64,000 nt of DNA from Halogeometricum rufum. GTDB lineage: Archaea > Halobacteriota > Halobacteria > Halobacteriales > Haloferacaceae. A program made the translations under genes and the position numbers. The DNA is taken from positions 434,001 to 498,000 of the forward strand of contig NZ_FOYT01000001.1 in the NCBI RefSeq assembly GCF_900112175.1, given 5' to 3'. Below are positions 10,654 to 15,312 of the stretch, piece after piece; positions within the stretch are counted from its first letter, which is position 1; every line of letters begins with the position of its first letter. Below the pieces are notes generated by a model that worked only from the letters and a program-made list of their open reading frames with translations, did no database searches and was not told where the DNA came from.

Positions 10654-11093
10654 GATCTGTCGTTCTCCCAGGCGCCTCCCCGACGCCTCTCGACGTCTTT
10701 GTCTATGGGACCCCGTGACTAACCCCTACTGCGTAGATAGATAGTGATAGGCGAGCTGACACACTATACTGCGCAACTTGGCTCGTAGAACGACAAGATA
10801 CACAGACAGTAACTAGTATTATAATGTTACGGTGATTAGCACTTTCGATCGTCACGCCGGCCGAACCGTCGGCGCACCTCTGCTACCTCGATAGTCGCGG
10901 CGAACGTATCTGATTGGAGAAATAAATATAAATATGAAAAAAATCTTATGATGCCGGGTTGTCAACATTCTAGATGCTATGTGGTACGGTAACACATAGC
11001 AGGATGGGTGTGAACGATGGTAAACGGTGAGGCGACAGGGACAGGAGAACAGACAGCAACAACAGTCGAGCGGAGCCCAGGAGCGTCGCGACG
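10654..11093. other. AT-rich intergenic leader of the accessory island
   Basis: About 440 bp without a convincing gene, clearly richer in A+T than the rest of the window: for example AATAAATATAAATATG near 10921 and a TATTATAATG stretch near 10815. It contains several possible TATA boxes and a 27-nt dyad. It probably marks one boundary of horizontally acquired DNA and the control region of the three genes to its right. A 28-codon frame starting at 11017 exists but has no support. Confidence 0.6.
10975..11001. promoter_or_regulatory. 27-nt palindrome, likely operator
   Basis: TGCTATGTG and CACATAGCA are perfect 9-bp inverted arms. Between them TAC...GTA continues the dyad around a central G at 10988, with one mismatched pair (g/a). 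It lies about 95 bp before the first island gene and about 50 bp after the ATAAATATAAATA tract, a sensible place for a dimeric repressor or activator site. Confidence 0.55.
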
Positions 11094-11930
11094 ATGTGTA
11101 TAATCGCCTTCTTCGGCTCGAGTTCGTCGGTCGACCCCGCGACGGAGATGAAGACGCTTCAGGTGGGAGCAGCCCGCCACCAGGCGGTCGCACGCACCTA
11201 CCAGGCGGAGAGTCAGTACCAACTCGCGGCGGCCAAAGACATCGAGGGGAACACGCTCCCCCAGAGTATGGGCGACGGGAACGCGATGGAGAGCTTCGAC
11301 CAGACGGTCGAGAACGCGAACCTGGCGCGGTCGAAGTGGAAGCAGGCCGAATACCGCCAGAGCGAACTCATCGCCCACTTCCGGTCCCAACCCGACGACA
11401 GCGGCATCCGGCCCGAAGTCCGGGACCAGATGGACCGGCTGGACCAGATGGATCAGGTGTTAGACCGGGCGTCCGATAGCCCCTACGGCGGGCGTCTCTG
11501 GGACATGATCGACGCCGACCCCGGCGCGGACGTCGTTGAAGTCTGTGCCGACATCCTCAAGATAGACGCAAAACGCGACGTCGGAAACAGCCTCAGAGAC
11601 AGAACCGGCACCTGGGACGACATCATGGCGCTGTTGGAGATGGACCATCACCAGATGGGCCGGATGAAGAATTCGGTCGACCAACTCTGCAGGAGTCTCG
11701 AAGAGCACAGAGACGAGTTCGAACGCTCGAAGAACTTCGAGTCCCGGGCGGTGAACACCTTGATAGACGGTAAGACCCACCCGGTCGAGGAGACGTTCAC
11801 GCAGAACACGGACCTGATCACGCGGTACTCGGTGTTCTTCGACGTCATGGCGACCAGCATCAACAGCGCGGTGAAAGGAGCCGGGAGCGACGTTCCCGAG
11901 GACCACCTGACCGCCTACCTCGACCACTGA
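11094..11930 (+). CDS. Uncharacterised helical protein, first gene of the zincin island
   Basis: I do not recognise this 278-residue protein. It has no signal peptide or membrane segment. Predicted character is mostly alpha-helical, with Gln/Met/Asp-rich amphipathic stretches (for example RDQMDRLDQMDQVLDRA) and a helical C-terminal half (EEHRDEFERSKNFESRA). It starts MCIIAFFG, superficially like class II glutamine amidotransferases, but nothing else fits. The next gene starts 22 bp downstream, so the three genes 11094-14965 probably form one operon. Confidence 0.7.
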   Translation: MCIIAFFGSSSSVDPATEMKTLQVGAARHQAVARTYQAESQYQLAAAKDIEGNTLPQSMGDGNAMESFDQTVENANLARSKWKQAEYRQSELIAHFRSQPDDSGIRPEVRDQMDRLDQMDQVLDRASDSPYGGRLWDMIDADPGADVVEVCADILKIDAKRDVGNSLRDRTGTWDDIMALLEMDHHQMGRMKNSVDQLCRSLEEHRDEFERSKNFESRAVNTLIDGKTHPVEETFTQNTDLITRYSVFFDVMATSINSAVKGAGSDVPEDHLTAYLDH

Positions 11931-11952
11931 CAGCCCGACAGTCACCAGACCA

Positions 11953-14214
11953 ATGAACGGCGTTCCGATCGATGCGATTCCGAGCGAGGGACGGGAGCGG
12001 CCGTCGCGTCCGCTGATACCCGAGAATCCGACGGCCGACCGGACGGGGCGACTCGTCTACGACGAGGGGGGAGCGCGGTCCGCCCGACCGGAGGAGTGCG
12101 AGTGCGCTTCCTCGAACACCGACCCGTCTATCGACCGGCCGTGTAGTCTGGAAGCCCTGGACGGCAGTTGGTACCTCCGGCTGTCCCCGGTCGGGGAGGC
12201 GTCGTCCGACGCGACGACGACGCACGGCGCGATGCGGGTCGAGTCTCGGACTGACGACCGCGTCCGGATTTCGGGCGACGTCTACGTCGAGGCCCCCGCG
12301 TGCGAGGACGGACGCGCCTCGAACACGCGCCCGGACGACTCGCTCACGATAGGGGACAACTGGTATCCCCAGTTCGAGAACTCGAAGTACAGCTGGTACT
12401 TTCGCAGTCTGGGCGCGTCGTACCGAGAGGGCCTCGTTCGATGCGACGTGCGACAGTACGTCTGGGACCCGGATGCGGAGGACTTCGGTGAGGAACGTAG
12501 CGACGGGAGCGTCGAGTTCGAGTGTTCGGCCGAACCCGTCACGCGCTCGTGGCTGCCACAGCCCACGCTCAGGCTGACCGGAACGGCGACGGTCGGTGGG
12601 ACGGAGTTCGACCTCACGGCCTACAAGACTGCGCCGTACTACAGAGGCTGTCTGCTCGAAGTGGACGTGATGGAAGAACGCGCGTGGGTCGAGTCGGCCG
12701 ACCGAAACACGAGACAGCCGCTGCGCTTTCGCGACGTGTACTCCGACACCGGAATCGAGTTCGCCGTCACCGTCGACGAGACGAGCGTCCCGAAGGAGCG
12801 GGACCTGACGCTGACCGAGATACGGGAACTGCTCGGGAGCCACCACAGCACCGTTCCGCCGGAGTCGAACAAGTGGCGACTCTGGCTGCTCGTCGGGTCC
12901 GAGATGAAACGCTACAGCACGCTCGGGATCATGTTCGACGATACGGAGCCGTACCGCGAAGGAGTGGCGCTCTTCTTCGACCCGGAACTCCCCGACGACC
13001 GACGGATACGCGAGTCGGCGCGCGGAAAGAAGCTGGGCGAAACCCCACTCGCGTTTCTCCGAACTGCCGTCCACGAGATCGGCCACGGCTTCAACCTCTA
13101 CCATCCGAAGGCCGACGAACACGAGGTGCCCGTCGGGAAGACGATAATGAACCAGACCAGCGACGTGATCGGTGCGGCGAGTGCCGCGAACCCCTTCCCC
13201 GACGTCGCGAGTTTCGCCTTCCACGACCACAACAGGACGTCGCTGGTTCACTCGCCCGACCCGCAGGTCAAGCCGCGGTGGAAGCGATTCGGCTACGGCC
13301 ACGGCGACGTCGGCTCCGGACCGGCGCCCCCGAGCGACCTGACGTACGACCGCGACGCGCCGGAGAGCGAAGAGCTCGTACTCGACCTGAACCTCCCCGA
13401 GACGGTGTTTCCCGGGGAATTGGTTATCGTGGACGTCACGGTGGAAAACCCCACCGACGAGCCTCGAGACGTGACGTCGGCGCTCAACATCACCGAGGAC
13501 TATCTGAGCCTCCACGTGCGGTCACCGGACAGGACACGGACCACGCCCCGGAACGTCGTTCGCTTCTGTACGGACCGGCAGACGACCAGCCTGAGCCCCG
13601 GCGAGCGACTCACCGGCCGGGTACAGCTCCTGTACACGAATCAGGGATTCACCTTCGACCGGCCGGGTCCGTACACGCTGTGGGCGGAGCTAGACCTCGG
13701 AGACCGGACGCTGCGAAGCGCCTCGACCGACGTTCTCACTCACTCACCGCTCTCTGAGGACCACCTCGACCTCAGCACCCTCGGACTGAACGAGGGCGTC
13801 GGCCGAAGCATCGCGGTCGGAGATCTCGGAGTGGACGCCGGCGCGGAGGACAGGCTCAGGTCGCTCGCCGAGGACTTCACTACCACCGACCTCGGCACGG
13901 CGGCGTCCGTGGTCCTCTCGAACGCCTACTCGCGGGACGTTCGAGACGTCCGACGAGGGAGGGTCCTCAGAGACTCGGACCGAGACACTGCGAGCTACTT
14001 CCTCGAACTCGCCGTGCAGGACCGCTCCGCTTTCGAGACGATGCGCGTCGCAACCGCCGTAACACCGCCCGGCGAGACGGACGCCCCCGTCCTCGACAAG
14101 TTGATCGACCGCTTCGACGCACTAGACAGGTACGACGCAGCAGAGGTCGAGGACGCACGAGACGTACTGACGGACTTCCGAACGCGTCGCGACACCGAGA
14201 CAGATGACGCCTGA
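11953..14214 (+). CDS. Cytoplasmic zincin-type metalloprotease with C-terminal paired module
   Basis: A 753-residue protein with a zinc-protease signature HEIGHGFNLYH (H374, E375, H378, H384) followed 15 residues later by a Met-turn candidate (TIMNQ, M399), as in metzincins. Asn381 stands where most metzincins have Gly. Upstream are a disordered, Cys-containing N-terminus (CEC at ~50) and beta-rich repeats (GSWYLRLSP; GTATVGGTEFDLTAYK). The C-terminal ~280 residues hold an Ig-like beta-sandwich (around GFTFDRPGPYTLW) and a helical domain. No secretion signal is visible, unusual for a secreted protease class. The C-terminal half is repeated as the separate downstream gene, whose start overlaps this stop. 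Confidence 0.75.
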   Translation: MNGVPIDAIPSEGRERPSRPLIPENPTADRTGRLVYDEGGARSARPEECECASSNTDPSIDRPCSLEALDGSWYLRLSPVGEASSDATTTHGAMRVESRTDDRVRISGDVYVEAPACEDGRASNTRPDDSLTIGDNWYPQFENSKYSWYFRSLGASYREGLVRCDVRQYVWDPDAEDFGEERSDGSVEFECSAEPVTRSWLPQPTLRLTGTATVGGTEFDLTAYKTAPYYRGCLLEVDVMEERAWVESADRNTRQPLRFRDVYSDTGIEFAVTVDETSVPKERDLTLTEIRELLGSHHSTVPPESNKWRLWLLVGSEMKRYSTLGIMFDDTEPYREGVALFFDPELPDDRRIRESARGKKLGETPLAFLRTAVHEIGHGFNLYHPKADEHEVPVGKTIMNQTSDVIGAASAANPFPDVASFAFHDHNRTSLVHSPDPQVKPRWKRFGYGHGDVGSGPAPPSDLTYDRDAPESEELVLDLNLPETVFPGELVIVDVTVENPTDEPRDVTSALNITEDYLSLHVRSPDRTRTTPRNVVRFCTDRQTTSLSPGERLTGRVQLLYTNQGFTFDRPGPYTLWAELDLGDRTLRSASTDVLTHSPLSEDHLDLSTLGLNEGVGRSIAVGDLGVDAGAEDRLRSLAEDFTTTDLGTAASVVLSNAYSRDVRDVRRGRVLRDSDRDTASYFLELAVQDRSAFETMRVATAVTPPGETDAPVLDKLIDRFDALDRYDAAEVEDARDVLTDFRTRRDTETDDA

Positions 14215-14965
14215 TATCAGCGCTCGTTTGACGAACGTTCCGCAGTCGAAAGCCCGCGGCGAGTTCGTCCTCCCTGCGTTACGGATCCGCAACGAGGGCT
14301 CCGAACCGGTGACGGTCAGCAATCGGCTGAACCTCGTCGAGGGCGACGTTCTGGTCGAGTGCACCGACCCGAGCGGGCAACGAAGCGAGCTACGGGGCGT
14401 CATCACCGTCGACAGCCTGCCCCGGACGGTCGAGTTGTCGGCGGGACAGTTTATCGAGTCCGGTCTGTTCCTGTTCTACGCGTCCGACGGGTTCACCTTC
14501 GACACCGTCGGCTCGTACGAACTGCGGGTCGGCTATCACCCCGACACCTCCGAATCGCCCGTGTTCACCGACTCCGTCGAACTCCGAATCACCGAACCGA
14601 CGGACTCGGAGACGCAGGCGTTAGCGGAGCAGACGATGGTGGACGACGTCGCCCGAGCGATAGCGCTCTGTGGGCTGGAGACGGACCCGACGGTCGTCGC
14701 CGGCCTCTCGACGCTCGGCGAACGGTTCCCCGACCGACCAGAGGGCGCACTCGCGCGGTTCGTCCTGGCGGAACTGTCCGACAGCGATACGGTCGACCTG
14801 ACCGACGTGTTCGACCGGTGGGGTCCGACCACCACGGCACGGTGGATAACCGCCCTCCTCTCGTCCGAGGGAGGCGACGAGCCGACGAAGCGGGCGTATC
14901 TCGATACCCTCGACCGGTCCGAACGAATGATCCGGGGCGAACCGGTGGACGACAGGCAGACGTAA
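14204..14965 (+). CDS. Stand-alone homologue of the zincin C-terminal module
   Basis: A 253-residue protein whose two halves match the C-terminal half of the preceding protease: GFTFDTVGSYELRVGYH aligns with its GFTFDRPGPYTLWAEL, and the helical part (VDDVARAIALCGL then DxxVVAGLSTL) aligns with VGRSIAVGDLGV and what follows. It has no catalytic motif and no signal peptide. The 11-bp overlap with the protease gene suggests translational coupling. A regulatory, inhibitory or scaffold partner is a plausible inference; nothing is known. Confidence 0.72.
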   Translation: MTPDISARLTNVPQSKARGEFVLPALRIRNEGSEPVTVSNRLNLVEGDVLVECTDPSGQRSELRGVITVDSLPRTVELSAGQFIESGLFLFYASDGFTFDTVGSYELRVGYHPDTSESPVFTDSVELRITEPTDSETQALAEQTMVDDVARAIALCGLETDPTVVAGLSTLGERFPDRPEGALARFVLAELSDSDTVDLTDVFDRWGPTTTARWITALLSSEGGDEPTKRAYLDTLDRSERMIRGEPVDDRQT

Positions 14966-15238
14966 TCGACACGTCCGGAGTCTCGTACGGCCCTGTTCGG
15001 TTTCGCCGTCCGAACTCCGGTTCCGCCGCCGAACGGGCCGTCGGCACGAGCGCTCACTCGCCCCTCGACCAGTTCCGCTCCCCGACTCCAAGCGAGAACG
15101 AGACCCACTGCTCCGAGCGCGTCGCAAGACGGTCCGGGTGCGAGCATCGAACCCGGCGTGAGACTCACGCCCTTCGCCTCGCGTGGTTCAATCTCGCAGT
15201 ACGAACTTTCGCCTGCTCACGTTGTTCGCAGCAGAAAG
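14966..15238. other. Non-coding stretch between the island and tRNA-His
   Basis: About 270 bp with no convincing reading frame. Its right half contains a degenerate copy of the tRNA-His 3' end and a further CGCGTGGTTCAATCTCGC segment that again looks tRNA-arm-like. It reads as a junction zone left by one or more integration events. Confidence 0.5.
15132..15156 (-). repeat. Partial copy of tRNA-His 3' end (att-like)
   Basis: GGTCCGGGTGCGAG is identical to 15238-15251 at the 3' end of tRNA-His and the match continues for 25 nt with two mismatches (CATCGAACCCG against AATTGAACCCG). This covers the 3' acceptor strand and part of the T arm. Such partial copies are left when an integrase uses a tRNA 3' end as its attachment site. 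Confidence 0.6.
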
Positions 15239-15312
15239 GTCCGGGTGCGAGAATTGAACCCGCGTCTCAGCCTCCACAAGGCTGAAGGATAGTCCACTAC
15301 CCTAACCCGGAC
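15239..15312 (-). tRNA. tRNA-His (GUG)
   Basis: The minus strand gives a full cloverleaf. The acceptor stem TCCGGGT/ACCCGGA is extended by the encoded G-1 paired with C73, the universal tRNA-His identity element. The anticodon loop TTGTGGA (anticodon GUG) sits on a CAGCC/GGCTG stem, and the T arm is GCGGG/CTCGC. CCA is not encoded. Confidence 0.95.

Follow-up and report, generated by a model that had tools for sequence, protein, structure and literature searches.

We examined three adjacent genes, here termed A, B and C, within a 64,000-nt window of the Halogeometricum rufum contig NZ_FOYT01000001.1 (assembly GCF_900112175.1); the window is the whole stretch of DNA analysed, and all positions refer to it unless another locus is named. 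Gene A (11094–11930) encodes an acidic protein of 278 amino acids (aa) that is predicted to be all-helical; gene B (11953–14214) encodes a predicted metzincin-like protease of 753 aa; and gene C (14204–14965) encodes a 253-aa protein that is a free paralogue of the immunoglobulin (Ig)-like plus helical module of B. All three genes lie on the plus strand, with a 22-bp gap between A and B and an 11-bp overlap between B and C; the coordinates and spacing given for them in a preliminary description of this DNA were exact. Their codon-position GC is of the coding type, and the third-position value (0.83–0.85) resembles that of the neighbouring genes, so that composition by itself does not mark them as foreign. 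No hydrophobic segment of signal-peptide or membrane strength was found in A, B or C (top 19-residue mean, 0.8–1.3), in full agreement with the earlier statement that none carries a signal peptide, and scans of the three proteins against Pfam, NCBIfam, PADLOC and PHROGs gave nothing above cut-off.

The protease encoded by gene B

The zinc-binding motif of B, HEIGHGFNLYH, occupies residues 374–384 (13072–13104, plus strand) and is followed by the Met-turn methionine, Met399, within TIMNQ (13147–13149, plus strand). Both elements had been recognised in the preliminary description, and they are constant in the family: H374, E375, G377, H378, H384 and M399 are invariant across 18 members, with the methionine set in either an S-x-MNY or a T-I-MNQ context. 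Metzincins are characterised by the motif HEXXHXXGXX(H/D), which supplies three zinc ligands and the catalytic Glu, and by a Met-turn methionine after the third ligand; H374, E375, H378 and H384 of B correspond to the ligands and the Glu, and M399 to the methionine. An AlphaFold2 model of B, built with the 18-sequence alignment (mean predicted local distance difference test score, pLDDT, 70), is divided into four parts, all encoded on the plus strand: an N-terminal beta domain (residues 71–239; 12163–12669), a zincin domain (256–440; 12718–13272), an Ig/CARDB-like beta-sandwich (475–597; 13375–13743) for which Foldseek returned the CARDB domain 3idu, and a helical-repeat tail (602–750; 13756–14202). 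When the whole model was submitted to Foldseek the top rows were Ig-like and other domains, and the search thus did not probe the zincin fold; the zincin assignment draws in addition on a profile of the B family, which, run against the PDB, matched the metzincins ulilysin, MMP-12 (a matrix metalloproteinase) and myroilysin over the HExxH helix (E 0.004–0.01).

None of the curated metzincin models matches B itself; a relative from Embleya reaches 22.6 bits against Pfam Reprolysin_4 (cut-off 22) and gives a weak match to the NCBIfam model for Mep72. Ulilysin and other pappalysins, the astacins and the matrix metalloproteinases share with B the HExxH helix region, where the family profile matches them, but the match extends over only 20–80 residues and these enzymes have Gly in the motif where B has Asn. 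The archaemetzincins (AmzA) are, like B, metzincins found in archaea; they require, however, HEXXHXXGXXHCX4CXMX17CXXC with four Cys (PMC3427221), whereas the corresponding positions of B hold no Cys (there is none in HEIGHGFNLYHPKADEHEVPVGKTIMNQ), and the NCBIfam archmetzin model scored at most 14.1 bits in B relatives against a cut-off of 145. Within the literature library that was searched, no paper had the motif HEXXHXXNXXH. B looks like a metzincin-like protease, presumably catalytic and probably cytoplasmic.

Relatives of B were recovered by tblastn and pattern scans from Nonomuraea, Embleya, Caballeronia, Rhizobium and Methylobacterium. A first contig scan that used B alone gave no match; repeated with a broader alignment, it recovered 19 further loci, which cover Gemmatimonadales, Arthrobacter, Desulfobacca, Nocardia, Streptosporangiales, Streptomyces, a deltaproteobacterium, Microbacterium, Promicromonospora, Thermoleophilaceae and Pseudomonas. 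Within the class, true relatives of B occur in 2 of 391 genomes (G360 and G172); an alignment search of 392 genomes of the order found no further full-length relative, and B was not found in any of the 169 other genomes of the family that were searched. Eight weak matches within the class (L005–L008, L010, L011, L015 and L016) were rejected, judged from their sequences, as chance or unrelated (a helicase, an isocitrate dehydrogenase, a glycosylase and others). B thus belongs to an unnamed metzincin-like family that is widespread in bacteria and rare in haloarchaea. Those relatives whose N-termini were inspected by eye likewise have no signal peptide. Metzincins are familiar chiefly as secreted enzymes. 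The protease catalogue has a gap where this family stands, which is widespread, lacks signal peptides, has an altered zinc motif and recurring adjacent partners, and is covered by no curated model.

Two members of the family deserve separate mention. The haloarchaeal protein of G172 (L021:9125–11359) and that of Rhizobium (L025:7581–9767) are 48% identical and have a small partner common to both, a likeness that suggests transfer between domains. The sole member on a viral contig (L028, IMGVR_UViG_3300026851_000039) adjoins a fimbrial-type gene, and that contig may be bacterial instead of viral.

Gene C and the B–C pair

The preliminary description had taken C for a homologue of the C-terminal half of the protease. 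The homology is real, and is narrower than that: the shared region is the Ig-like domain and first helices of B (residues 480–666), not the entire half. By blastp the two proteins are 26–27% identical over about 189 aa (E 2e-13), C residues ~11–199 (14234–14800, plus strand) aligning with B residues ~480–666, and a hidden Markov model of the B clade detects C with E 7e-27. B and C stand side by side in six genomes, one of these pairs being decayed, and C is always directly 3' of B on the same strand. The actinobacterial pairs come from Microbacterium trichothecenolyticum (L043), where the surroundings are ordinary genes (pyrE-like, exonuclease III-like), from Promicromonospora (L044) and from two members of the family of the latter (G470 and G498); in all four genomes C is single-copy and found solely behind B. 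The decayed pair lies on the Halocatena salina plasmid NZ_CP096022, where a single in-frame TAG interrupts B and a frameshift breaks C apart.

A tree of the modules groups those of B and C of this clade together (support 100/98) and places the C proteins in one group inside the B clade with moderate support (86/78). A single C group in that position makes one old duplication likelier than repeated ones, and the duplication is probably older than the archaeal and actinobacterial pairs. For the Promicromonospora-family pairs 44/50 and 44/51 the ratio of nonsynonymous to synonymous substitution rates (dN/dS) was ~0.27–0.30 for C and ~0.2 for B; the comparison 50/51 was left out for C because its frames were over-extended. 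C is under purifying selection.

The preliminary description had proposed a search for co-occurring homologues of all three proteins, and had named homologues scattered without co-occurrence as a refutation. Relatives of A were found in none of the 391 class genomes, the five genomes holding B, the plasmids, the phages or the viral contigs that were searched, and by that test a three-gene system consequently fails, while the B–C pair, adjacent in archaea and actinobacteria alike, passes. The conserved system is the B–C pair and not the A–B–C trio.

Members in other clades also have small neighbours. A beta-rich protein of ~100 aa is common to six of them (G172, Rhizobium, Gemmatimonadales, Arthrobacter, Desulfobacca and Nocardia), another of ~100 aa to Caballeronia, Pseudomonas (two) and the viral contig, and the Planobispora and Streptomyces members have an Ig-like neighbour of 165–184 aa. 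No Pfam family accounts for these neighbours, and none of those tested gave a match to an inhibitor family of Pfam. One Streptomyces gene directly upstream of the metzincin relative (L034:6975–7700) gave a sub-threshold match to the I36 metalloproteinase inhibitors (17.6 bits, cut-off 21.1); the I36-like, crystallin-type part of this protein is its C-terminus, and is weak. The partner rule is not universal, as the neighbour in L030 and L032 is 0.6–1 kb from the protease and none was seen for the Nonomuraea members.

Interpretation of the B–C pair

Pairs of a metzincin and an adjacent partner are already known. Mep72 of Pseudomonas aeruginosa is toxic in E. coli, and the product of the adjacent gene, BamI, binds Mep72 and relieves the toxicity; AprI likewise inhibits the metzincin AprA (PMC4334185). 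In AprA–AprI and related serralysin-inhibitor pairs the inhibitor of the metzincin is a small, cognate protein (PMC4334185). The B–C pair is similar to Mep72–BamI in that a metzincin with C-terminal accessory domains adjoins another gene, which for Mep72 encodes a protein that binds it; with both Mep72–BamI and AprA–AprI it shares a conserved adjoining partner gene. It differs in that Mep72 carries a signal peptide for secretion and the BamI gene precedes that of the protease; BamI, moreover, is described as partly unfolded rather than as a paralogue of the protease tail. What is unusual here is the Asn motif in a protein that lacks a signal peptide, together with a partner that duplicates the protease tail as a free protein.

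We put the probability at roughly one half that B–C comprises a cytoplasmic metzincin-like endopeptidase together with a dedicated trans-acting regulator, probably an inhibitor, derived from the protease's own tail. B would consist of the N-terminal beta domain, the zincin, the CARDB/Ig-like domain and the helical tail; C would have arisen by an old duplication of the Ig-like plus helical module and, translated directly behind B, would most likely bind B. Since C is anatomically this module, it is expected to contact what the module contacts in B, and it could either dock at the packing site of B's own module or pair with that module, keeping B inhibited or gated until a partner or substrate frees it. 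The pair would travel among genomes as a cassette, here within an insertion of ~4.3 kb at tRNA-His together with the orphan gene A. Because the known precedents of a metzincin with such a neighbour are inhibitors, inhibition of B by C is favoured over activation, by analogy for the binding as well as for the inhibition. A regulator evolving from the non-catalytic module of a protease, and this across two domains of life, would make the pair a direct test case of such an origin.

Several observations weigh against this interpretation. The motif Gly, described as strictly conserved in metzincins (PMC3427221), is replaced by Asn381 in B and by Asn in most relatives (HExxHxxNxxH), and in this B departs from a strict-Gly definition; Gly is retained, on the other hand, in the Caballeronia and viral-contig members (HEIGHAMGLVH and HELGHAMGLYH), and we infer from these that B is a metzincin with a permitted Asn replacement. 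The zincin part of the B model is of moderate confidence, and its Met-turn region of low confidence. A Thermoleophilaceae metagenome-assembled genome encodes a B protein 44% identical, with no C nearby or elsewhere in that genome, so that C is not always required. The partners in the other clades may be unrelated to C. Finally, C does not exceed B's own module in size, so that it could equally be an activator, a scaffold or an assembly subunit.

The last point leads to a possible, if tentative, alternative in which C serves as a subunit without catalytic function, or as an adaptor for substrates, and forms a hetero-oligomer with B through the like modules, so that targets are recruited or presented and nothing is inhibited. 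Modules of the Ig/CARDB-like and helical-repeat kinds commonly serve to bind proteins, C retains both, and the remaining evidence on the pair fits an adaptor equally well; however, the only described precedents found for a metzincin with such a neighbour are inhibitors (PMC4334185). It is unlikely that the pair is a toxin-antidote or anti-phage module, in which B would kill or arrest the cell upon loss of C (or A) or upon sensing a phage protein. The toxicity of Mep72, the patchy distribution within the class (true B relatives in 2 of 391 genomes), the tRNA hotspot with swapped cargo and the decayed B and C copies on the Halocatena plasmid would all suit such a module, but A, B and C have no match above noise in PADLOC-DB, the pair was not found in phages, and in Microbacterium it sits amid ordinary genes. 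A wider reading, in which an intracellular Asn-for-Gly protease class is inhibited or regulated by a freed copy of its own C-terminal module, as a self-made protease-antidote cassette exchanged between archaea and bacteria and possibly serving as a conflict module, strikes us as rather speculative.

Two further explanations have still less to recommend them. It is highly improbable that a contractile injection system carries B as its effector, C and/or A then acting as the chaperone or immunity protein: B has no signal peptide and a phage-sheath homologue is present in this genome, in congeners and in Microbacterium, but the sheath gene of this genome is on a different contig, and none was found in the three Promicromonospora-family genomes with intact B–C, in Halocatena or in G172 (G360, G172, G392, G470 and G498). 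As a general role it was rejected, genomes with B or B–C occurring without a sheath gene. That C is a functionless, decaying piece of a duplicated protease is scarcely credible; both Halocatena copies are broken, yet elsewhere the purifying selection on C, the intact frames, the constant adjacency and the single C group common to archaea and actinobacteria speak otherwise. The sheath homologue of this genome (PF04984; L084, C4:116266–116541) has counterparts in three congeners.

The insertion at tRNA-His

Genes A, B and C occupy a lineage-specific insertion of ~4.3 kb (approximately 10770–15096). For the congener G158 the alignment breaks off at ~10769 and resumes at ~15097; the ~0.3 kb in between includes an extra tRNA-end-like copy, and the site is thus near-empty; the insertion is absent from four congeners. 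At the same place the congener G358 has 1.7 kb with regulator-like genes, and in G544 this tRNA-His gene adjoins a 38-kb island (L068, L067; C1:~390663 to 429063) with copies of the tRNA-His end on either side. The tRNA-His gene (15238–15311, minus strand) is an integration hotspot. A copy of its 3' end (15239–15261) lies at 15132–15154 (plus strand; 0.01 chance matches expected), and further copies occur in congeners. The tRNA-His edge and its remnant resembling an attachment (att) site had been noted before; their copies, and the absence or replacement of the insertion in congeners, indicate that the DNA at this hotspot was acquired or is variable, which bears out the earlier view of the region as acquired.

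Gene A, having no relatives anywhere searched, is cargo of this insertion only, and possibly belongs to the operon, given its spacing. Its description as a helical protein stands as a prediction, the model being made without relatives and of very low confidence (pLDDT 42). Its lone PADLOC-DB match, to GajA at 17 bits, is within noise. A 262-aa helical protein near the deltaproteobacterial member (L042:10111–10896) was considered as a counterpart of A and rejected, as the two have no sequence similarity. Upstream of A, the AT-rich leader mentioned in the preliminary description is visible at approximately 10900–10960 (plus strand), with an archaeal TATA-like element, AAATAAATATAAATATG, and is presumed to be the promoter. 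A short ATG frame, MLCGTVTHSRMGVNDGKR, is also present in the leader 5' of gene A, at ~10973–11031.
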